A stretch of 46,567 nucleotides of DNA from Candidatus Cloacimonadota bacterium (GTDB lineage Bacteria; Cloacimonadota; Cloacimonadia; Cloacimonadales; Cloacimonadaceae): positions 1 to 46,567 of the forward strand of contig JAHDQK010000010.1 of NCBI GenBank assembly GCA_018433885.1, written 5' to 3'. Made by a program: the position numbers and the translations under genes. Positions 7,901 through 42,793 of the stretch are shown piece after piece. Position 1 is the stretch's first letter. Every line of letters starts with the position of its first letter. The notes beneath the pieces are model-generated. The model saw only the letters and a program-made list of their open reading frames with translations. It did not search any database and had not been told where the DNA came from.

Positions 7901-10900
7901 CCACTGGTCAAAATCACGATGGCTGGGTGCTCTACCGTATACCTCTTACGGATCCTAACGCTTACACTATGGTAAGCAACTCTTCAACGGGAGTTATGCC
8001 AACCCTCAAAAAGATCTCTTATGCCCGGATCTGGTTGCAAAGTGATTCTCCCGTCCGGGTGCTGGTAGCGGACGCCGCAGTAGTCGGTAACAAATGGCAA
8101 GATTTTTATGTGAGAGATATCAATGGCAGGATCTTGAGTGATGCTGAAGTTGCTGCATATAACACTAGTTATCTTTCCGGTATTGTGAACAATCAAAAGA
8201 ACTCCAACCACTATACTTCTCCTCCTGGTACAGTTTATATAGAAGAACGCAGAGAATCCTCGGAATCTGCTCTTTCTTTGGATATCGCGAATCTGCAGAG
8301 TGATAACCAGGTAATCCTGCGGCAGAGAATGATAGACTCCTACAATCTATTACCTTATGAAGCTCTGCGCTATTGGGTATATCCTGAGGTAGAAGAAGGC
8401 TCGCTGCTCCAGGATCTGGATGTGTTTTTCAGGATCGGAGCAGATTCGCTGAACTATTACCAGGTAACCCAAAGAATCCCTGTTGTGGAATACCAAAGCA
8501 AGATGGACAAAGATAAATGGCTGGAATTGGAATTTGACTTACAAAGCATCACCGCGCTCAAGGAGAAAAATCCGGGTGCCTTGACCGATACTCTGGTGGT
8601 GGATAATGTTACCTATTTCTATAGGGGAAGACCCACTCTCACTACCATTCGCGAGCTGTATCTTGGGGTTATTAATCCTCGCACAGACTATCAAAATGAA
8701 GCGTTGAACGGTACGGTGTATTTTAATGACATGAGAGTTACCAATCCCTTCCAAGACGTGGGCGTGGCGCAACGCATCTCGCTCAATTCCAAGTTTGCGG
8801 ATTTCTCGACCCTAGACGTGGATTTTGAATCCAAAAGCGAGAACTTCAACCCAGTAATTCAGAGAGGAAGAACCAATACCTTCACTCGCACACAAAGCTT
8901 GAACATCGTAAATAAATACTTCGTAAACAAGTTCTTCCCCAATTCCTGGGGCTTGGATATGCCAGTAACCTTGCGGAGAAATCACACCGAAGGTTCTCCC
9001 AGGTACAGGGCAAACAGTGACCTCTTGGTGGATAACATTCCGGATCCGGAAACAAAAAAAAGAGAGAGTACCGAAAATCTGGTGTATTACGCGGATTTTG
9101 GTTACAGCATGCGTAATGCGCCCAAGAGCAAGATCCTTGGTTATACACTGGGTAAGATCACTCTATCAGGAAACATTGAACAGAAGTATAACTATACATC
9201 TGCCGCGGTGGATACCACTCTGAGCTGGCGTGGCACGATGGGTTATAACTTGAATTTCCCTGCGGATAAAACCAGTTTCCGCTTGTTCGGCAATTATCGT
9301 TTAGGATTTTTCCCCACAGCGTTTACAAATAGTTTCACGATCAACAATATTGAGCCCAAAAGCTGGAACTGGGAACTTCGGGACGGCACGTATAATTGGT
9401 ATGAAAGAGCTTATACCACGTCCTCACGTTTGGTGACCAGCGACAACAACATAACCTGGCCACTAACGAGCGATATGAATCTATCGGCTAGATTCAACAC
9501 AAAAAGGGACCTTCTACAGGAAGTATATCTGGGATCTCTAAATATTGGTAAACAAACGGAGTACGTACAAGATCTGGGCTTGAATTATAACCCTACCTAT
9601 CTGCCCCGTATTATGAACTTAAGTACCAGCGTGTCTGCCAGATATACGGATATGGTACGAAAATACTACGAAAACCAGGATGGCCAACAAGTGGAAGTGT
9701 TTCAAAGCGATGGTAATACAAATAGGGGTTTCCGCGCCAATATCGCTTTGATGAACTCGTCCTTGTTAAGCTCATGGGCACAAAAACTCCTCGCCGGTAG
9801 TGGTAGAAGAACAAGCGGAGGAAGTGAAGGTAAGTTTGAAGGCGATATTAAACCGGAAGATTTTGAGCAGATGAGCGAGGAAGAACGCAAGAAATTTGAA
9901 GAACTGATGTATCAGGAATCTGCTCCGGATTCTGAGGAAGATAAAAAAACACAAGCGGATGAACAGCGCAAACTAGAAGAAGAACTTAGAAGAAGAGAAG
10001 AGGAAAAGCGCAAGCAGGAAGAACGAGATAAAGAAGACGAGAAAACCAAGCAGGAAGACGATTATAAGCAACCAGAGAAAGAGCTTGAGGAAGAACAAAA
10101 AGATCACGCAGAGCTTGATACCGAGATGGAACCATCCGTAGATCCCGCAGTAAACGGTAATATTACTGAGGGAACCGGGGATGAAAAGACAAAAGAGGAA
10201 CGCGAACCCATTAATCTGCTTGGAACCGCTGTTAGCTATCTTTCTAGAGTAAAGAACCTTACCGCAAGCTATCAGAATGCTTATGCCATGAACTATACCC
10301 GCAAGACAGATCTTCCGAATTTCGCATTCAAATTGGGACTACCTCATTCCATGCCGAGAGATTACCTGGACGCGATCGGAAACGATAATACCATTACTCT
10401 TTCTTCGGGAATCTTCTTTGGTAGAAACTTGGATAGCACCATCAATTTCGCCCATAGCTTCAATCGGCGCTATTCCGCTGCCAGCCAACAGAATCAATCC
10501 ACCACATTCCCGGATATCCAGCTCACTCTGATGAATTGGGAACCGTGGCTGGGAATCTCCAAATATCTTCAGGGTGCAAGACTAAATGCTGGCTTCCAAT
10601 ACACTACTCGTGCCAGTGGGGATATCGATTGGGTAAAACCCAAACAGGAATCCCAAACCATCTCGCTGAGTCCATTACTTGGCTTTACCGGTAATATTCT
10701 CAACAAATTGAATACAAACCTAAGCGTATCAATAAGTGAGACCGAAAACATCACTGATATGGATACCTACAACATAGTAAAAACCAGTGAGTCAATTACC
10801 CTGAACGGAAATCTCACCTATAGCTTTACCGCCGGACGTGGCTTTACAATCCCCTTTACCGGCAAGAAGATACATATCAACAACCAGCTTTCATCATCCG

Positions 10901-30690: not shown

Positions 30691-31871
30691 TTTATTCCTC
30701 TTTTGGGATTTTTGGCAATTTCTTCGATTAAATGTTGTACACGCTTTTTGACAAGCTTTATCTCGTATTGTTCTTCCACTTTTCTACGAGCATTGTTGCG
30801 AATGCTATCCAGTTTTTGAATGTCCAATGCCTGAACGGCAAGAACGGCATCTGTAAGGCTTTGCACGGAGCCTCGTTTGAAAAGGAAGCCATCAGTTCCG
30901 GAGCAGATTATTTCGCTGGGTCCGTAGGCATCGGTAGCGATCACAATCAGGCGAGCAGCCATGGCTTCGATGATGATCCTGCCAAAAGCTTCTCTTGCCA
31001 GGGTGGGCATCAGCAGAACATCGTATTGAGGCAGGATTTGGGAAACATCGTGGTATCTGCCTAAAAAATTGAAATGCATCTCCATGCCAGAGATTCTAAT
31101 TTTTTCGCGGCATTCGTTAAGATACTCTTGATCCCCATCGCCGTAGATGTCCAAAGCGAAATCCGGAATGGTTTCTACAAGTTTCTTAGCTGCGGTAATG
31201 ATGAGATCGAGACCCTTCAGAGGTTCAATGCGCCCCGCAAAAATAAAACGCAGCGGTTTGGAGCTGTGTCTGATCTGGCAGGGGGGGAGAGCAATTCCCC
31301 GCGGGATGACGAAAACATGTTTGCTACCATAGGTGGAAAGAAGCTCTGACTTCATCCAGCGCGAAGGGACGATAACCGGATCTATCTTGATATTTCCGCC
31401 GATAGTTCCCGGGATGACGCGCTTGAGAAAGCGGTTCATGATGCTGCTTAAGTTTCGGGAAAGATAGATGCGCGGCCACAAATCTCCGATATCAAAGACT
31501 CTGGGGATATTCTGCTTTTGAACCGCGAGAATGGGAGCGATCGAGATTCCCTTCATGTTACCAAAGTAGATCAGGTCTGGTTGGACATATCTTAGGGTGT
31601 TCATGGTGCGGCGATAGTTGTGCTTTTCCACTTGGTGTTTGTTCTGAAACGAAGGAGATACATAATCTATATAATTCAGAACCCTGTGGGGAATTCCAGC
31701 TCGGGGTGTATCCTGTAGATCTATCTCTTTTGGCGGGATACCCTTGGTTCCGCATAGAACATACACTGTATGTCCGCTGCCTTCCATAAAGTCCATGGTT
31801 TCTTTCACAGATATCTCGTAGCCGCCTTCATAGAAAGGGGGATAGTAGTTTGAAACGCAGAGAATCTTCAT
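30687..31871 (-). CDS. Glycosyltransferase family 4
   Basis: A 394-residue GT-B fold enzyme. The N-terminus ILCVSNYYPPFYEGGYEISV is the usual acceptor-domain glycine-rich opening. The donor domain has RFIFAGRIEPLKGLDLII and the E-x7-E motif EAFGRIIIEAM used for nucleotide-sugar binding in retaining GT4 enzymes. It adds one sugar to the lipid-linked EPS unit; which sugar is unknown. It overlaps both neighbours by 4 nt (ATGA), so translation is coupled. Confidence 0.87.
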   Translation of the reverse strand: MKILCVSNYYPPFYEGGYEISVKETMDFMEGSGHTVYVLCGTKGIPPKEIDLQDTPRAGIPHRVLNYIDYVSPSFQNKHQVEKHNYRRTMNTLRYVQPDLIYFGNMKGISIAPILAVQKQNIPRVFDIGDLWPRIYLSRNLSSIMNRFLKRVIPGTIGGNIKIDPVIVPSRWMKSELLSTYGSKHVFVIPRGIALPPCQIRHSSKPLRFIFAGRIEPLKGLDLIITAAKKLVETIPDFALDIYGDGDQEYLNECREKIRISGMEMHFNFLGRYHDVSQILPQYDVLLMPTLAREAFGRIIIEAMAARLIVIATDAYGPSEIICSGTDGFLFKRGSVQSLTDAVLAVQALDIQKLDSIRNNARRKVEEQYEIKLVKKRVQHLIEEIAKNPKRGIK

Positions 31872-32266
31872 TTGAATATCCCCCGCAAGATGTCTCTAAG
31901 ATGAACATTGGCAAAGAGATCTATGCCTATAAGGGATTTGATGAGATACAAGAGATACAAGATAAGGATCAGTGTAACCAATAGCATTACAATGTATGTA
32001 ACAAACTTGGCGACGGTTGTGAGACCAGTATCCATATCTCCCTTGTCCAGAGATTTAAACTGGTTGCGGGTGTCTCTACCAAAGATAAACACTACGTACC
32101 AGTGACGAAAAAACCAAAATGAGAAGCGGATGTCGATGATACCCAGGGATGGAACCGGGGGTAGCATGCGCTTCATCAGGCTCATCAACTCTTTACGTTG
32201 CTCGTGGGACAGGGTCTCCTGAATCCCTTTGCCGCCCACCGTACGTTTATGCACCTTTTCCTGCAT
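31868..32266 (-). CDS. Small membrane protein of unknown function in the EPS operon
   Basis: I do not recognise this 132-residue protein. Residues about 8-35 are charged and probably cytoplasmic. A segment at about 42-65 (GIIDIRFSFWFFRHWYVVFIFG) is aromatic and may be membrane-associated. A clear membrane helix runs from about 88 to 113 (TYIVMLLVTLILILYLLYLI), and the tail is short and basic. The start is well supported by GAGG 7 nt upstream. It overlaps the Wzy-like gene by 20 nt and the GT4 gene by 4 nt, so it is certainly part of the operon. It may be an accessory subunit of the polymerase or export complex (inference). Confidence 0.7.
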   Translation of the reverse strand: MQEKVHKRTVGGKGIQETLSHEQRKELMSLMKRMLPPVPSLGIIDIRFSFWFFRHWYVVFIFGRDTRNQFKSLDKGDMDTGLTTVAKFVTYIVMLLVTLILILYLLYLIKSLIGIDLFANVHLRDILRGIFK

Positions 32267-33650
32267 AAATACCTCGTAAGCGTTCGGAAGTGCTGAGATT
32301 TCTGGGCAGTGCTACTTTGTGAGATCGGTAACGCTTTTCCAGCTTGGTCATTACCATGATCATGGCAAACATCAACATCAGCTGATAGAAATTATTCGTC
32401 TGTTTAAGCACCCACTCCAAGGTGGATTCCAGATAGATTGCCAGCAGACCCCCGGTGAGACCTATTGCAAAATACTGATAGTCTGTACCCCGGTAGCTTA
32501 GCATATTTTGTACATTGCGGAAAAAGAAAAAGAAGATGAAGCCGAGAAACACCGCCAGAGTGTGCCATCCGGATTCCGCCGCGATCATCAGATAGATTGT
32601 TTCTACCAATCCATTCTGCTCATCTTCGTCGTCGGGATTGTGCATTTCGATATGGTTGCTGTATTGCCAGGGTGGATTGATCTTGATCCCAAAGTTGTTC
32701 AGGCCAATACCCAGAGGTTTGTCGTTCGCCATCTTCACGGCGGCTAATGCTAGATCTCTGCGTACGATGGCGGATTCAGCGGGAGCCGTGTTGAATCTTT
32801 CACTTATCGAGTTCCAAGCCCGCGCCATGATCGCCAATGAGACAATAATCAACAACACGGTCACGGTGATCTTTTTGGATGTAACACCGCTCATGAAAGA
32901 TAGCCCCAGCACTATAACTATGGACATGGCGTAAAGCACCAAGCCAGCTCTGGAAAGGGTGGAAATGATGGAAACGGAGGTCATGGCAAAAAGGAGGAGC
33001 CAGAGCGAAAAACCCACAAACGAGATGTCCTTCTTGTTCAGGAGAAAAGAGAAGATCAACGAACCCAGCACTATGCTATACATCACTAAAGAGTTCTGGT
33101 GGGGAAAGGGACCAAAGGATTGAAACCTGCCCTCCCAATACTTCTGTTTCATCACTTCAATAAAGATATAGACGGTTACCGCGGCTACACCAAGCATGAA
33201 GTCGTTAAACTGCTCAAAGCTATTCACATAGTTATAAACAACATAGAAATACAAGAACATTCTCGTCATCTTCCAGAGTTCAAACCACGAGAATAGCGGC
33301 ACTGCAGCGTTGAAGATAGATATTGCGCTGAGGGAAAAATACAGGAAATAGAGCCACGACCCCGAGGGGAGATGGATGTGGAAGCTCCTGCGGCGTTTGA
33401 GGATCAACAGAAAGATAATGAAGGTGCAGATATCCACAAGCCCAATCTCGAAGCCGCGGGAAGTTAAACGAAAACTCTCTCTAGATACGAAATTGATGTC
33501 TTCCATCCGCACGGTAAAAAACATCATCAGGAAGAATATTACTTTCTCCACTTTAGGGAACTTCAGCGAAAGGAAATAGCCCAAAGGCACTCCGATGAAC
33601 AGAGTAGCAAAGAAGATGATGTATTTGAGGTGGGATAGGGATTCACTCAC
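32247..33650 (-). CDS. O-antigen polymerase/ligase-like membrane protein (Wzy/WaaL type)
   Basis: A 467-residue protein with 10-12 predicted helices and one large extracytoplasmic loop of about 80 residues (about 280-365) holding NSISERFNTAPAESAIVRRDLALAAVKMANDKPLGIGLNNFG. This is the pattern of the O-antigen ligase/polymerase (Wzy_C) family, including the invariant-looking Arg and the PLGIGLNNF segment. As the only such gene in the cluster it probably polymerises repeat units in the periplasm. The start is a GTG. Separated from the Wza-like gene by 36 nt. Confidence 0.82.
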   Translation of the reverse strand: MSESLSHLKYIIFFATLFIGVPLGYFLSLKFPKVEKVIFFLMMFFTVRMEDINFVSRESFRLTSRGFEIGLVDICTFIIFLLILKRRRSFHIHLPSGSWLYFLYFSLSAISIFNAAVPLFSWFELWKMTRMFLYFYVVYNYVNSFEQFNDFMLGVAAVTVYIFIEVMKQKYWEGRFQSFGPFPHQNSLVMYSIVLGSLIFSFLLNKKDISFVGFSLWLLLFAMTSVSIISTLSRAGLVLYAMSIVIVLGLSFMSGVTSKKITVTVLLIIVSLAIMARAWNSISERFNTAPAESAIVRRDLALAAVKMANDKPLGIGLNNFGIKINPPWQYSNHIEMHNPDDEDEQNGLVETIYLMIAAESGWHTLAVFLGFIFFFFFRNVQNMLSYRGTDYQYFAIGLTGGLLAIYLESTLEWVLKQTNNFYQLMLMFAMIMVMTKLEKRYRSHKVALPRNLSTSERLRGIYAGKGA

Positions 33651-36736: not shown

Positions 36737-37876
36737 TCATCTAACAAGTTCTTTCTCCATAGTTTTACGAATATCAGTAATCGACAGAATATCCTGAGGG
36801 ATCTGCCGGTTCGAGAGCATCACACTATAGGAATGCGACGCATCGGGATGGTAGCCATGCATTCCGGGTATCACTTCGAGTCCCATATAACTGGGATTTA
36901 TCAAGAGCCCTTCGTTCATCAGGAAATAAGTATCCCCAAATTTATTGTGGGGAAACTGAACCCTGAGGAGTTTGAGCTCCTCGTTTGGCACCACATAGCC
37001 ACAATCAAGTGTACTTAAATGATCCAGTATGGCTGTTTTGGCGGCATCATTATGCCACCAGAATCTCGCCATGGTGGAGTCGTAAAAAGCAATATAATCC
37101 TTGCCATACTCCAAGCCAAGTGTTTCAATATCCTTCATGAGATCGTAAGAACCTGTAACGGGTGCCATACCGTGGTCCGATATCACATACAGACTCACAT
37201 CATCATATATTCTACGAGCATAATTAAAGAGACCTAATATCTTCTGTTCCATATCCTTCAGTTTGGCTTCGCTCTGATCCGAAAACGGACCAAAGTTGTG
37301 CATAACACCATCCAGCTTGGGCAGATAAACATAGATGAACTGCGCTTTCCCCTCGCTGATCACCTTCTTGTTTTCCAACAATATCTGATCCTCGGAATGT
37401 CGCCAATTGGAACAGTAATAGGGGATGTCGTGCTGGACACACCAATCGAAGATAGTGTCTGTAGCAAGTATTCCGCCGGGAACGAAGTAATCCCTCTTCT
37501 CCAGATAATCGAAATAGGGGAGATGCTTGAAGGGAACGCTATAAAGCTCGAAGTATCCGGTGAATGAATGCAAATGCTTAATCAATTTGCTGAGGTTGTG
37601 TCTTACTCTCCATCTATCAAAGATCATTGGCGGTAGTTTTGCTAGATAATGCATGCCCCTAAACGGCGAGTTTTGAGGATCGTAGATGAAACTTGACCAA
37701 TGAGTGTGTTCATCAGGATACCTTCCGGTCAGGATTGAAGGGTCTGCCGCTGAGGAAAATCCAAAGGTGGTCTTCAGTTTTCTGGATTCAGGAGCTAGTT
37801 CTTCAAGAAAGCCGAAGTGTTTGTAGATTTCCCAACCCAAAGCGTCGATAAACACATACATCGCCAGTTTCTTCAT
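36737..37876 (-). CDS. Alkaline phosphatase superfamily protein (nucleotide pyrophosphatase/phosphodiesterase-like)
   Basis: A 379-residue soluble protein without a signal peptide. Metal-site motifs of the AlkP superfamily are present in order: YVFIDALGW (Asp11), FSSAADPSILTG with the candidate nucleophile Ser41/Ser42, LPKLDGVMHNFGP, VISDHGMAP, and MHGYHPDASHSY. The family includes phosphodiesterases, phosphomutases and phospho-group transferases. The lack of a signal peptide places it in the cytoplasm, unlike most phosphoethanolamine transferases. It sits between the nucleotidyltransferase and wzc genes, with gaps of 7 and 1 nt. It may act on a nucleotide-activated substituent of the EPS (inference); substrate unknown. 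Confidence 0.82.
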   Translation of the reverse strand: MKKLAMYVFIDALGWEIYKHFGFLEELAPESRKLKTTFGFSSAADPSILTGRYPDEHTHWSSFIYDPQNSPFRGMHYLAKLPPMIFDRWRVRHNLSKLIKHLHSFTGYFELYSVPFKHLPYFDYLEKRDYFVPGGILATDTIFDWCVQHDIPYYCSNWRHSEDQILLENKKVISEGKAQFIYVYLPKLDGVMHNFGPFSDQSEAKLKDMEQKILGLFNYARRIYDDVSLYVISDHGMAPVTGSYDLMKDIETLGLEYGKDYIAFYDSTMARFWWHNDAAKTAILDHLSTLDCGYVVPNEELKLLRVQFPHNKFGDTYFLMNEGLLINPSYMGLEVIPGMHGYHPDASHSYSVMLSNRQIPQDILSITDIRKTMEKELVR

Positions 37877-37883
37877 TATGTCC

Positions 37884-39047
37884 TCAATTGTAACGCTTCC
37901 AAAGCGTCATAAATCTTTGTTCCAGCCCCTCTCGGGAGAGGATGCCATTCATGCCCAGGATTCCGGATACTATCTGATTATCCATTTCCTCGCCAAATAC
38001 CATCCAGGGCATTGCCATATGCAGGCGGAAGCGTGGATACCTGAACCAATCCTTGCTGCTTATCTGGTTGAGAGATTTATCCCGCAAGTTCAAAGCTACG
38101 TTTCTAATCTTGAAGTCCCTAATTCCACGCTTTATGCTATTTATAAGAGTGGATCCATCTGAAATCGATTCACCGAGTTCCTTGCTCCACAATGTGTAAT
38201 AGACGTCCTTAAGAGCGGCTGTTGCGTAGTTCAACTTCTGCTCAAAGTATATTGCATCGAAATCCGGAATGTATGGCATTAGCTTGAACTCCATAGCTTT
38301 CAGGATTTCTGCTTTGAGTTCCATTTGGCATGAGTATGATTCTAGATTGGTATCCAGCAGGATGCGCATTCTGGATACTACCGAGCTTTCGTAGCTGCCA
38401 TTATCGATCATGATTGCTTCTGCTAATGCTTGCAGAGCCTTGCAAATGTTTCGATTGATAAAGTCTGCATGGCAGGCGGGGTCTTCTTCTGCGAGATATC
38501 GCTGGGATAAGTATAGCCCAATACCTCTGTTCAGTAGAAGACGCAGTGCTTCCATCCGGGGAATATCCTGGGCAGACCAACCGGGAAGAGCGTGTAGAAG
38601 ATGGGGGTTTCCCCATAACACTTTGTGACCGTATCTGAGATCATAATACATCTGGCTGATCGGTGTGGCGGGTAAACTCTTTGAGATCATAGGGATGCTG
38701 AAATCTATATCAATGCCATGTTCACTGCTCAGGAGCTGATGCAGATGATTCAGGGCGTGCTTCAGTTTACGTCTGGAGATAATATTCATGGGCTTGGTGA
38801 AAACAAACAGATCAAGATCATTATAAAGTTCTTCGATGCCATCATGCCGAAACACACCGCCTTCGCCCCTGCCATATCCACCACCTAGCACCAGCGCGCT
38901 TAGCTTCGAGAGGTCTGTTTTACTCAAAAACTCATCCACAACACTCTTAAGGAGTTTATCCACCATGGCTTCAAAGTCGGAGCTTCCATAGACGCTATAA
39001 CTCATAGCATTTCTAATTTTTGGAACCATCAAATCCCGCGCAGCCAT
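37884..39047 (-). CDS. Pol-beta-fold nucleotidyltransferase-like protein of unknown function
   Basis: A 387-residue soluble protein. The N-terminal 150 residues show LVLGGGYGRGEGGVFRHDG, ELYNDLDLFVF and, later, GIDIDFSIP: a glycine-rich loop followed by an Asp-x-Asp and a third Asp, the catalytic set of the polymerase-beta nucleotidyltransferase superfamily. The rest is mostly helical (about 160-387) and I do not recognise it. It overlaps the upstream fusion gene by 35 nt from this start; in-frame ATGs at 39029 (GGGA upstream) and 39005 are possible real starts. It probably transfers a nucleotide or nucleotide-activated group within the EPS pathway (inference). Confidence 0.65.
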   Translation of the reverse strand: MAARDLMVPKIRNAMSYSVYGSSDFEAMVDKLLKSVVDEFLSKTDLSKLSALVLGGGYGRGEGGVFRHDGIEELYNDLDLFVFTKPMNIISRRKLKHALNHLHQLLSSEHGIDIDFSIPMISKSLPATPISQMYYDLRYGHKVLWGNPHLLHALPGWSAQDIPRMEALRLLLNRGIGLYLSQRYLAEEDPACHADFINRNICKALQALAEAIMIDNGSYESSVVSRMRILLDTNLESYSCQMELKAEILKAMEFKLMPYIPDFDAIYFEQKLNYATAALKDVYYTLWSKELGESISDGSTLINSIKRGIRDFKIRNVALNLRDKSLNQISSKDWFRYPRFRLHMAMPWMVFGEEMDNQIVSGILGMNGILSREGLEQRFMTLWKRYN

Positions 39048-40419
39048 GGATCAATCTTCGAAGAATTGTCCGCCCCAGTATCTTGAGGTTGTGATGTGTG
39101 GAGATGTAGTTGATGTACTCCAGTTCGTAGAATATCTCGGCTTCGGTATCTCTGGAGGCTACACTTTCCGCCAAAGAGAATGCTCCGGGGTTATAAGCTG
39201 GAAGTTCGTTAATCAGTTTCCGATGGTTGAGGGTGTTTGTGAACAAGCGGTTGCCGACGAGGTAAAGCTCTTTGGTGAAAGCGGCGGCACATACTTTATC
39301 GAATTTATCCAGAGACAGGCGCAGTAAAAATCTACCCCAGAGCGTGTTTTGCAGTTTCTCGCTATCCACGAACTTGCGGGACCTCATATTTCTGTTCAAT
39401 AGCTTATCAGTTCTCACAGAACTACCGAACAGAGCAAAGGGTACATACAGAATCAACCACGGCAGAATTTGTAATACGAATAAAACCAGCGCAAGAATCC
39501 GTTGAACTGCACGGTTGAACATGCTGGTAACGATCCCTGGCTCTACTTGGGCAACCAACACTCTGTCGTTGATCTGGATCACCTCGCCATTCTCTGCGTT
39601 GGTGAGATAGCCCTTGTATACTATCTTTTTATCCATATCCAAATCTCTGCCAATATATGTGTTATCGTACACAATGCTATCTGTCACACAGGTGTTTTCA
39701 TCGATTATCACGTTGTTTCCGATGATGCTGTTGCCTCCAATCAAAGTGTTACGCTGAAACCGGCAGTTGTTGCCGATCATGATCGGTGGATGTATCTCGG
39801 AGCTATGAGGATAAACCAGATTTAGTCCTAAAAAGGTATCCTTTTCATTTGAATAGCCTGGTAACACATACTTCTCGTTGTGTTTCTTCAGGATGTTCAT
39901 GGAAAGCTCATAATATTGGGTTATGCTTGCGATATCTTTGGTTTCGAGGCACTCGGGATCTCTGATGTCCTCAGCTTTAAGATCCAGGAGCTTGAAATCC
40001 TTGGGAAGATATATAAAGCGTTTGCTTCCTGTGTAAAAGGCTTGCGAGAACTCTTTTTCAAAGCATAGCTTGCTCTGATCGTAGAGCAAGAAGAAGAATC
40101 CATTCCAGATTAGGAGATCGTCTTCTTTACAAAATGCCATATTCTTCAGATACACGGTTTTAAGGCTGTCGTTGGGGAAGGCAAGACCATAGCTGGTTTT
40201 TACTCCCCATTTCGCTCCGGTTCCAAAGAATGCTTCAATATCCTTGGTGGAACTATCCGTCACGATACGCAGTTCGTTTACGCCCAACAGCGACGCAAAG
40301 TCCATTGCGTATTCCAGCAAAGGCTTGTTCACGATTTTCAAAAGATATGGCTCGATATCCGGGAAGTAATCCCTTAGCCATGCCGTATCCTTTGTTTTGG
40401 CGTAGATCAAACAGCGCAT
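39013..40419 (-). CDS. Nucleotidyltransferase-like / left-handed beta-helix / degenerate phosphoglycosyltransferase fusion
   Basis: Three parts in 468 residues. Residues 1-200 follow the sugar-nucleotidyltransferase pattern (IVNKPLLEYAM, LGVNELRIVTD), but the GGxGTRL loop is replaced by AKTKDTAW and the usual PKP by IEP. Residues about 205-270 are hexapeptide beta-helix repeats (IGNNCRFQRNTLIGGNSIIG). A membrane helix follows at 307-331. Residues 365-456 then align with the C-terminal half of the neighbouring PGT: RLSLDKFDKV for RFSIDELPQL, LYLVGNR for MSLVGPR, YNPGAFS for VRPGITC, and YELEYINY for LDLEYIRS. The catalytic Asp-Glu pair reads Asp371-Lys372. Both enzyme halves therefore look inactive. 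The start has GAGG 5 nt upstream. A scaffold or regulatory role for EPS initiation is possible (inference). Confidence 0.72.
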   Translation of the reverse strand: MRCLIYAKTKDTAWLRDYFPDIEPYLLKIVNKPLLEYAMDFASLLGVNELRIVTDSSTKDIEAFFGTGAKWGVKTSYGLAFPNDSLKTVYLKNMAFCKEDDLLIWNGFFFLLYDQSKLCFEKEFSQAFYTGSKRFIYLPKDFKLLDLKAEDIRDPECLETKDIASITQYYELSMNILKKHNEKYVLPGYSNEKDTFLGLNLVYPHSSEIHPPIMIGNNCRFQRNTLIGGNSIIGNNVIIDENTCVTDSIVYDNTYIGRDLDMDKKIVYKGYLTNAENGEVIQINDRVLVAQVEPGIVTSMFNRAVQRILALVLFVLQILPWLILYVPFALFGSSVRTDKLLNRNMRSRKFVDSEKLQNTLWGRFLLRLSLDKFDKVCAAAFTKELYLVGNRLFTNTLNHRKLINELPAYNPGAFSLAESVASRDTEAEIFYELEYINYISTHHNLKILGRTILRRLIHGCAGFDGSKN

Positions 40420-40441
40420 GTTACCTCTTGTAGATTATTGG

Positions 40442-40789
40442 TTAGTCGTCCCAATCCTGACCAAAGCTGGAGACAGCAGCCTCAAGGTCGTCAAATATAT
40501 GGAATATCTTGTGCGCGCGGGTGATATCAAAAACCATGCGGGGTTTACTTTGCAGGTTTGCGATATGAATATCGCCCCCACCTTGGGAAGCTGATTTTAG
40601 GCAAGCTACGATCGTGCCCAAGCCTGTGCTATCGATAAACTCGCATTTACTCATATCGAACACAAAATTCACTGCTTTTTCTGCAACCTGGTCGTATTTA
40701 GCTCTCAGTTCGGGAGCATTATAGGCATCGAGCCTACCGGATACTTCAATGATCCCTACCTGATCTTGTTGTGTAAAATTGAGCTGCAT
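40442..40789 (-). CDS. STAS-domain protein (anti-sigma factor antagonist-like)
   Basis: A complete 115-residue STAS domain of the SpoIIAA/RsbV type: VSGRLDAYNAPELRAKYD, FVFDMSKCEFIDSTGLG with the conserved phospho-acceptor Ser54, then LQSKPRMVFDITRAHKIF. In the known system a kinase phosphorylates this serine and a PP2C phosphatase reverses it, controlling partner binding. Neither an RsbW-type kinase nor an RsbU-type phosphatase is encoded in the window. It lies 12 nt after the intact PGT gene and 22 nt before the fusion gene, with GGAG 6 nt upstream, so it is a bona fide operon member and may regulate EPS initiation by protein contact (inference). Confidence 0.88.
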   Translation of the reverse strand: MQLNFTQQDQVGIIEVSGRLDAYNAPELRAKYDQVAEKAVNFVFDMSKCEFIDSTGLGTIVACLKSASQGGGDIHIANLQSKPRMVFDITRAHKIFHIFDDLEAAVSSFGQDWDD

Positions 40790-40801
40790 TCGTATCTCCT
40801 T

Positions 40802-41533
40802 TTAATATGCACCCCTACCGCTTATAACGGCGGGGATAGTTTTCAGTAGAATTATCAGGTCGTTTTTAAGACCTTGAGATCGGATGTATTCCAGATCAAG
40901 CTGAACTTGTTGTCGGAAGGGGATCTCGCTGCGTCCTTTAATCTGCCATAAACAGGTGATTCCCGGCCTTACGTGCAAGCGTTTACGATCTTCCAAAGTG
41001 TATTCTGCCACCTCGCGGGGTAAGGGTGGACGCGGCCCAACCAAACTCATATCTCCCTTGAGGACATTGATCAATTGTGGTAGTTCATCGATCGAGAATC
41101 TGCGGATAAACTTGCCGATGGGAGTTACTCTGGGATCGTTCTTCATTTTGAAAATAACGCCATCTTTGGATTCGTTTTGTTCCAAAAGCAGATCCTTCAT
41201 TTTATCCGCGTTCATATACATCGAGCGGAACTTGATGAAGCCAAAATAAGCACCGTTTAAGCCAACTCTGTTTGCCACATAGAAGATGGGACCGGGATCA
41301 TTCAGGTAGATCAGGATGGCAGTAATCGCAAATAAGGGAGAGAGCAGGATCAACATGATGAAAGAGATCAAAACATCCAGAAAGGATTTCAGGAATTTGG
41401 CAAATGCCACAGTCCACTCCCAGATCGAGATCTTCAGGCGCATCCGCAGATTACTGCGTTTCTTGCCCATTTGCATCAAGCGCTCGATTTCCCGGGCTCT
41501 CTGACTCTTGGCATGACCTCTGATCTCTTTCAT
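40802..41533 (-). CDS. Polyprenyl-phosphate sugar-1-phosphate transferase (monotopic PGT), intact
   Basis: Transfers a sugar-1-phosphate from a nucleotide sugar to undecaprenyl phosphate, the first membrane step of the pathway. The 243 residues hold a re-entrant membrane helix (about 52-75, LISFIMLILLSPLFAITAIL), NRVGLNGAYFGFIKFRSM, the catalytic Asp149-Glu150 in RRFSIDELPQLINV, MSLVGPRPPLP, RPGITCLWQIKGRS and LDLEYIRSQ. All family key residues are present. It is the small catalytic-core form with a charged 40-residue N-terminus instead of the multi-helix N-domain of WcaJ/WbaP. GAGG is found 5 nt upstream of the start. Which sugar is added is unknown. Confidence 0.93.
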   Translation of the reverse strand: MKEIRGHAKSQRAREIERLMQMGKKRSNLRMRLKISIWEWTVAFAKFLKSFLDVLISFIMLILLSPLFAITAILIYLNDPGPIFYVANRVGLNGAYFGFIKFRSMYMNADKMKDLLLEQNESKDGVIFKMKNDPRVTPIGKFIRRFSIDELPQLINVLKGDMSLVGPRPPLPREVAEYTLEDRKRLHVRPGITCLWQIKGRSEIPFRQQVQLDLEYIRSQGLKNDLIILLKTIPAVISGRGAY

Positions 41534-41545
41534 GTAATCCTCGGT

Positions 41546-42793
41546 TCAGAAAATCTGTTTACGCCCGTTTTTGTTCCAACGATAAACACGAAAAACAAAG
41601 AGCGGATTTCCCAATATGTATCTTCTCCACATGCGTCCTGGCTCTTGGATCAGGCGAAATACCCATTCCAAGCCAGTCTGGCGCATCCAAATCGGTGCTC
41701 TGGTGATGCGACCTGAATAAAAATCGAACAATCCACCCACTCCCATTTGCAGAGGGGCATGGATCATCTCACCAAAGCGATGTATAAACTTCTCTTGAAG
41801 CGGGGCTCCAAACGCGATCAACAGGATATCCGCCTGCGCGAGATTGATCTCGTTGATCACAGATTCTGCTTCGTTATCCCAATCAAAATATCCGTTTCGG
41901 AAACCGCAGATGTTAAGCTGAGGATAGGTATCCAAAAGCCTCTCACTCATCGCTTTTGCCACACCCTCTGCGGCCCCCAGCAAGAAGATGCGATATCCTC
42001 TGGCTTGAGCTAGCTCACACAGATGAGGTAGCATATCGGTTCCGTTCACGTTCTCTTTCAAATAGCTTCCCAGCATTTTGGCGGCAAGGTTTACTCCGCT
42101 ACCATCCGGAAACACTATCTCATTATTCTTTAATATATCTAGGTATTCCTTATCAACAAGTACTTTATTCAGGCAATCCGCGTTAACGAAATATGCGGGG
42201 CTATGGATCTTGTCATCTATCCTTCTCTCCAACATGCTTATGGCATCTTTCATGGTTAGATTCAGCATTTTTATCCCGAAGATATCCAGTTGATTTTCGT
42301 GGGATTGTTTGCTTTGGTGAAGGATTAACGCTATCATCGCCTGCATCAGTAATCCAATATCTGTGAAAGGTTTTCGTGTTCTGATGTACTCTCGATCGCA
42401 ATCTAGCGCATAGCTTTCTGCCAGACGCGAACTCATGCGGATGAAGTAAAGGCTGATCAATCCGGGTTTGTAAGGATACAAATCCCGTGGTAAGTCCCCA
42501 TCATCAACCCTGCGCAGAGATATCCCCACCAAGCTTAGTTTTCCAGAGATTATCAAGGGAAAGAGAAAGGCGTTTCGCCGCAGCCAGTTATCGGAATCCA
42601 CAATTTTCACCCGAATGATTTCGGCATTTTTACCATAGATATCCAAGAGCTGGATAGTGCCCCGGAGCTTTGCCGAGATTCTAGTGGGTAAACCAATCAC
42701 CAGATCCAAAGCCAATGTCGCTAGATACAGAAAAGTGCTCACAAACACATTTGCTACGCAGTTCTTGATGATGCAAACGATCAGGCTATTCAT
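41546..42793 (-). CDS. GT26 (WecG/TagA/CpsF) glycosyltransferase fused to an N-terminal degenerate PGT module
   Basis: Residues about 168-408 are a full GT26 enzyme: FVNADCLNKVL, IVFPDGSGVNLAAKMLG, NGTDMLPHLCELA, IAFGAPLQEKFI, GVGGLFDFYSGRITRAPIWM and GLEWVFRLIQEPGRMWRRY. Such enzymes add the second sugar to the lipid-linked first sugar. The first 158 residues are an unusual extension: one membrane helix (13-34), then a stretch that aligns with the C-terminal half of the neighbouring PGT (RRNAFLFPL for IDELPQLIN, GKLSLVG for GDMSLVG, YKPGLISLYFI for VRPGITCLWQI, DREYIRTR for DLEYIRSQ). The catalytic Asp-Glu falls on Arg-Asn, so this module is inactive and may only anchor the enzyme at the membrane or pair with the intact PGT. 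The start overlaps the GT4 stop as ATGA. Confidence 0.85.
   Translation of the reverse strand: MNSLIVCIIKNCVANVFVSTFLYLATLALDLVIGLPTRISAKLRGTIQLLDIYGKNAEIIRVKIVDSDNWLRRNAFLFPLIISGKLSLVGISLRRVDDGDLPRDLYPYKPGLISLYFIRMSSRLAESYALDCDREYIRTRKPFTDIGLLMQAMIALILHQSKQSHENQLDIFGIKMLNLTMKDAISMLERRIDDKIHSPAYFVNADCLNKVLVDKEYLDILKNNEIVFPDGSGVNLAAKMLGSYLKENVNGTDMLPHLCELAQARGYRIFLLGAAEGVAKAMSERLLDTYPQLNICGFRNGYFDWDNEAESVINEINLAQADILLIAFGAPLQEKFIHRFGEMIHAPLQMGVGGLFDFYSGRITRAPIWMRQTGLEWVFRLIQEPGRMWRRYILGNPLFVFRVYRWNKNGRKQIF

Follow-up and report, generated by a model that had tools for sequence, protein, structure and literature searches.

An intact phosphoglycosyltransferase and two predicted dead paralogues in a conserved exopolysaccharide cassette of Candidatus Cloacimonadota and other phyla

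The window analysed here is a stretch of 46,567 nucleotides from a Candidatus Cloacimonadota bacterium (assembly GCA_018433885.1, contig JAHDQK010000010.1, positions 1 to 46,567). It forms contig 34 of a genome of 2.42 Mb with a completeness of 99.9%. The window contains an exopolysaccharide (EPS) locus, encoded on the minus strand, in which three modules related to monotopic phosphoglycosyltransferases (PGTs) lie within 3.8 kb. The genes follow each other in the order GT4 glycosyltransferases, C, B, STAS, A, N387, phosphodiesterase, Wzc-like and Wza-like, where A, B and C designate the products of 39013-40419, 40802-41533 and 41546-42793. L-numbers are used below for sampled loci. B is an intact small monotopic PGT of 243 amino acids (aa) with the motif SIDELPQ at 41075-41095. 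C (415 aa), described from its open reading frame (ORF), Pfam, a profile search of PDB sequences and AlphaFold2, carries a predicted dead PGT module ahead of a GT26 domain of the WecG/TagA/CpsF family. The module comprises residues 1-160 (42314-42793), has Arg-Asn in WLRRNAF (42566-42586) at the place of the catalytic dyad and retains Pro36. The GT26 domain comprises residues 166-415 (41549-42298) and its conserved site is intact. A (468 aa) consists of a nucleotidyltransferase-like domain without GGxGxR (residues 1-195, 39835-40419), a left-handed beta-helix of the eIF2B/GMPP type (residues 196-292, 39544-39834) and a second predicted dead PGT module (residues 300-462, 39034-39522). In this module Asp-Lys is found in SLDKFDK (39295-39315), and Pro320 of the membrane helix is kept. 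Between B and A a STAS protein of 115 aa is encoded (40442-40789), with a phospho-acceptor-type serine in IDSTGLG (40616-40636). Its position in the same cassette as the live and dead PGTs agrees with the first-pass annotation of this DNA.

The relationship of A and C to PGTs was examined with the Pfam profile Bac_transf (PF02397). B was matched with E 1e-65. For the window copies of A (residues 347-454, E 2e-5, 24.5 bits against a cut-off of 27) and C (residues 81-156, E 0.0095) the scores stayed below the Pfam cut-off. These weak scores are settled by the relatives and family profiles, which match PGTs. At E<=0.001 Bac_transf was found in 24 of 30 relatives of A (best 2.3e-9) and in 46 of 61 relatives of C (best 2.8e-26). 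Against all PDB sequences, positions 302-463 of the A family profile aligned with residues 5-185 of the 205 residues of PglC (E 1.3e-13), and positions 21-177 of the C family profile with PglC 7-190 (E 1.3e-11); WbaP was matched by both. The profile search proposed earlier for the two extensions thus gave PGT matches for A as well as C. The three modules had been described as sharing the C-terminal half of PGTs. Their homology stands, as the family profiles match PglC and WbaP, but the restriction to one half does not, because the match covers nearly the whole PGT, and the profile-profile alignment of the dead modules with B extends over the membrane helix. A and C appear to contain near-complete monotopic PGT modules, membrane helix included. 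The LVG, PG and EYI motifs were located where they had been annotated: SLDKF, LVGN, NPGAF and LEYI in A, SIDELPQ, LVGPRP, RPG and LEYI in B, and LRRN, LVG, KPG and REYI in C. Pro320 of A and Pro36 of C are at least 90% conserved in the family alignments A1 and A4 and lie in a long helix predicted by AlphaFold2. Thus, of the hallmarks of PF02397 proteins, the profile match over the fold and a predicted reentrant helix with helix-breaking proline are present in A and C, and the dyad is absent. A second clear PF02397 match of the host genome (E 7.5e-24) is located on another contig, at the contig end (G000:C20:49-507, L002).

The AlphaFold2 model of A (predicted local distance difference test, pLDDT, 89; predicted template modelling score, pTM, 0.67) shows a helix at residues 300-331 followed by a small alpha/beta domain. 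Its best PDB matches in Foldseek were tlr0611, VTC1-KJC2 and GMPPA/GMPPB, and the list was filled by nucleotidyltransferases. For C a pLDDT of 95.5 and a pTM of 0.89 were obtained; the latter suggests a defined packing of the dead PGT module on the GT26 domain. Foldseek listed TagA/TarA for this model and no PGT structure among the top 50 matches. The order of helices and strands in both models fits a PGT. Sequence profiles together with this matching order point to a PGT fold of the dead module in C.

To compare the catalytic residues, modules of all three kinds (57 A, 72 B and 63 C) were aligned jointly. The Asp-Glu dyad was found in 72/72 B modules, in 0/57 A modules (Asp-Lys in 21) and in 0/63 C modules. 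The first-pass annotation had assigned the intact pair to the stand-alone PGT alone, with Asp-Lys in A and Arg-Asn in C; this holds for the window, and no relative of A or C in the alignment has Asp-Glu. Further positions invariant in B are gone from A and C, namely K94, R96, K122, D126, P127, R128, R137, Q146, Y171, G193 and R194 (fragment numbering; +7 gives full-length B). The stretch ~118-128 of the same numbering is missing in every A and C. Retained are G159 of LVG (100%) and G184 of PG (86% of A, 98% of C) and, for the most part, the proline of the membrane helix. With a threshold of 85% identity, 69 columns are conserved in B, three in A and two in C, and those of A and C are all Gly or Leu. 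In the same C chains the GT26 domain offers an internal check against errors of sequencing or alignment. It belongs to PF03808 (E 4e-60), matches TagA in the profile search of PDB sequences (E 5e-72), and 60-61 of 61 proteins share Asp230, Gln333 and several arginines. Consequently C has both the family match and the conserved site of a GT26 enzyme. In the N-terminal domain of A, GGxGxR, the signature of sugar-nucleotide pyrophosphorylases, is kept in 0/64 proteins, and the profile still aligns with MurU and tlr0611. The nucleotidyltransferase domain of A is therefore itself predicted to be dead, as are the PGT-like parts of A and C.

Two other functions have to be discussed with regard to these residues. 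The dead modules may have been rebuilt for a different reaction, which would explain their long retention under selection. However, neither module has a polar residue that reaches 85% conservation, which is hard to square with catalysis, and we regard this explanation as very improbable. Alternatively, they might bind undecaprenyl phosphate or the lipid-linked product of B and hand it to the GT26 domain (C) or report it (A). The helix proline of PglC matters for polyprenol binding (PMC6133551), and it is this proline that is kept in A and C, with the positions of the sugar-nucleotide site lost. Moreover, the module of C is fixed to the enzyme that would consume the product. Phosphate binding is doubtful, however, since the basic positions invariant in B are mostly gone, and the dead modules have no conserved polar pocket. 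Lipid hand-off therefore seems unlikely to us, but it is one of the two main rivals of the interpretation given below.

The ratios of nonsynonymous to synonymous substitution rates (dN/dS) were 0.05-0.33 for the dead modules and 0.03-0.09 for B, in pairs with usable dS. Values well under 1 indicate that the dead modules are maintained by purifying selection, with a constraint that appears weaker than that on B. In an IQ-TREE tree of 72 modules B was split from A plus C at 100/100. Trees joining A with B, or C with B, within Cloacimonadota were rejected by the approximately unbiased (AU) test (p 1e-86 and 2e-58). A single origin of A and a single origin of C were not rejected (AU p 0.35 and 0.24), and the deep branching order in this tree is limited by long branches. 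Judged by eye, the subtrees of A, B and C have many clades in common (A and B, for instance, both show window-L034-L109-L035 and L237-L039-L041), a pattern to be expected of a cassette that is passed on as a whole. Seven very divergent C modules of Alteromonadaceae grouped with A in the full FastTree tree; the support was 0.08 and this placement is not trusted. The dead modules are ancient and common to several phyla. A local duplication, which had been proposed as their origin, is not borne out, because the lineage-specific trees are rejected and the dead state is found across phyla. The same state across phyla and the dN/dS values agree with the further proposal that the dead copies were kept. 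As 3.8 kb of a single locus contain three PGT modules, these could also be remnants of a recent duplication heading for loss. With selection of this strength, a dead state shared by several phyla and the rejected duplication trees, such an explanation is extremely improbable.

Co-occurrence of A, B and C extends over at least five phyla. A was detected in 25/125 genomes of Cloacimonadota, in 18/151 of the order of Methylovulum, in 5/150 of the order of a Granulicella metagenome-assembled genome (MAG) and in 3/194 of the order of Desulforhopalus. It is present in Lentisphaerota and others, too, and the overall spread is patchy and cassette-like. In 55/65 loci A and B are encoded on the same strand and no more than 2.5 kb apart; among the ten exceptions, L114 and L119 are truncated where their contigs end. 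For C with its dead module, fusion to B or a distance of at most 2.5 kb from it was recorded in 53/63 cases. Conservation of the trio in related genomes, which had been suggested as a check, was thus confirmed. The dead-PGT-GT26 protein is distributed more widely than A and was detected in 7/321 sampled Gammaproteobacteria and in three Actinobacteria.

Furthermore, six genomes encode dead PGT, GT26 and live PGT in a single ORF. These are Desulforhopalus vacuolatus (L040, 736 aa), Desulfogranum japonicum (L053, 698 aa), a Granulosicoccaceae MAG (L056), a genome of the Methylovulum order (L215) and two more Gammaproteobacteria (L240 and L241). In L240 and L241 the second PGT copy has SIDEIPQ or SVDEIPQ and the first copy is without the dyad, so that a dead and a live module are combined in one chain. 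Such fusions are Rosetta-stone evidence for C and B working side by side.

The fusions also bear on the second main rival, in which the dead modules are plain membrane anchors that hold the GT26 domain and the head of A at the membrane without touching B. The conserved proline of the membrane helix fits an anchor, GT26 activity requires the membrane in the case of TagA (PMC6493773), and a few genomes have C without adjoining B. However, TagA-type GT26 enzymes use their own C-terminal appendage for the membrane, and C has this appendage, too, with conserved arginines. For a mere anchor the globular part would be dispensable, yet it is retained. The adjacency of the genes and the C-B fusions point to B as well. 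Anchoring alone is hence an improbable explanation.

In the gut Lentisphaeria loci L080-L105 a GT4-GT26 fusion of ~595 aa replaces the dead PGT-GT26 protein. An initial view that neither B nor the dead A module occurs in these bacteria was abandoned, since they have B and a shortened form of the module.

In 34/65 loci the strand that encodes A also carries a STAS gene no more than 1.5 kb away. The serine motif is DSxGL in 43/66 and IDSSA in 4/66 STAS proteins. With its IDSTGLG the window copy has the phosphorylatable serine of partner-switching proteins. The STAS protein near the L080-L105 cassettes has lost the serine (IDNYGL). Genes of an RsbW-like HATPase_c_2 kinase were found near A in 22/65 loci, and those of a SpoIIE-type PP2C phosphatase, usually behind a receiver domain, in 22/65 loci. 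The carriers are mainly Desulfobacterota, Methylococcales and Acidobacteriota. In Methylococcales the phosphatase gene is often only 4-92 bp from A, and the genes of L054 are arranged as C, B, A, kinase, STAS, receiver/PP2C. The host genome of the window has three SpoIIE domains elsewhere, outside the cassette. These regulators are putative parts of a partner switch resembling SypE/SypA.

We propose that B is the working PGT, which would transfer the first sugar-1-phosphate onto undecaprenyl phosphate, and that the PGT-like parts of A and C are dead copies retained as membrane-bound docking modules. Through its module C would keep the active GT26 domain membrane-bound next to B, and the second sugar could then be added to the product of B in place. 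The module of A would bring the dead nucleotidyltransferase and beta-helix head into the same assembly, in which this head would serve as sensor or scaffold. As the likely on/off switch of this membrane-bound initiation complex we regard the STAS protein, which an RsbW-type kinase would phosphorylate and a PP2C phosphatase would dephosphorylate. We estimate the probability of this reading at about 50%. The sequences themselves show the homology to PGTs, the lost catalytic site, selection, co-inheritance, fused C-B proteins and, in relatives, genes for kinase and phosphatase; the physical assembly of A, B and C, the docking role of the dead modules and the control by STAS are what we infer here. 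C-B fusions, adjacency and similar tree shapes favour the pairing with B, and the kinase and phosphatase genes beside the STAS gene in relatives favour regulation.

Several observations weigh against this proposal. The cassette of the window contains neither a kinase nor a phosphatase gene, only the STAS gene. With no column other than Gly or Leu conserved at 85% in the dead modules, no universal binding residue is apparent. The three Actinobacteria carry C without B nearby. L224-L228 (Methylococcales) have A and C but no adjoining B, and live PGTs are encoded elsewhere in these genomes. In L162 and L163 C-B and A are placed ~28-30 kb apart on one contig. GT26 proteins without a dead module stand beside B in L118, L123 and L235, and the A-like proteins of L051 and L052 stop after the beta-helix. 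These last two groups argue that each of the dead modules is dispensable.

Undecaprenyl phosphate is scarce, and it is committed by initiating PGTs, about whose control and coupling to the next enzyme little is known. The conserved trio and the phospho-switch make both questions testable in the cultured carriers Methylovulum psychrotolerans and Desulforhopalus vacuolatus. In the wider form of the proposal, two dead paralogues, of which one bears the next glycosyltransferase and the other a dead sugar-nucleotide sensor head, would hold and gate the live PGT in several phyla, and STAS partner-switching would turn it on and off; this is possible but a tentative suggestion. If it is true, the committing step of EPS synthesis becomes a candidate direct target of SypA-type STAS proteins.

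At the place of B in L224-L228, between C and A, a hydrophobic protein of ~404 aa is encoded, GT-C-like by eye, and no B was found in 13.5 kb. N387 (37884-39047, -) is a conserved neighbour that follows A in many loci. The window copy has no Pfam match. Its family has the invariant pattern GGxYGRGEGG...NDLDF...D, a polymerase-beta-type nucleotidyltransferase signature, and NTP_transf_2 was matched by 4/17 members (best 5.6e-5). No match of the family was found in the PDB; N387 is regarded as a nucleotidyltransferase-like protein co-travelling with the cassette. In L161 a single ORF of 568 aa (8588-10291, -) combines an A-like protein with N387, and B is again adjoining. The type I phosphodiesterase / nucleotide pyrophosphatase-like protein (36737-37876, -) is a cassette member in Cloacimonadota and is present in EPS loci of Lentisphaerota, too. 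Two further proteins of the EPS locus, of 467 aa (32247-33650, -) and 132 aa (31868-32266, -), are without Pfam match.

The pathway itself is known, and so are Bi-PGTs, in which live PGT domains are fused to functional domains (PMC10942596). New is the putative system of dead PGT pseudoenzymes as partners; the open-licence literature yielded no account of a live PGT with dead paralogues as its conserved partners. With small monotopic PGTs of the PglC type A and C share the homologous module with its membrane helix, and with Bi-PGTs the fusion to other domains. In contrast to both, Asp-Glu and most invariant positions are gone, so that no competent dyad accompanies the fusion, and a third copy, encoded separately or fused, provides the live PGT. 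The GT26 domain of C has the fold and conserved site of TagA/TarA, but it is placed behind a dead PGT module and sometimes ahead of a live PGT. The head of A is of the same dead nucleotidyltransferase and beta-helix type as in the pairs GMPPA/GMPPB and KJC/VTC1, which combine a dead regulatory paralogue with a live enzyme; GMPPA is described as a non-catalytic regulatory paralogue of GMPPB (PMC11228364). Unlike these, A has a dead PGT module at its end, and the gene to which it is linked encodes a PGT and not a pyrophosphorylase. In Vibrio fischeri biofilm is under the control of the STAS protein SypA, whose mechanism is not known (PMC4517449), and the trio hints where the target of SypA in biofilm regulation might be sought. 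As with SypE/SypA, genes for STAS protein, serine kinase and PP2C phosphatase occur in the EPS locus of relatives, but there kinase and receiver/PP2C are separate genes, and the window cassette has the STAS gene only. That an initiating PGT can be under the direct control of a protein is known from Myxococcus xanthus, where the response regulator EpsW activates EpsZ (PMC12802240). Both systems combine a regulatory gene and an initiating PGT. EpsZ belongs to the large PGTs and has a single receiver domain as partner, whereas a small PGT is accompanied here by dead paralogues and a STAS protein.

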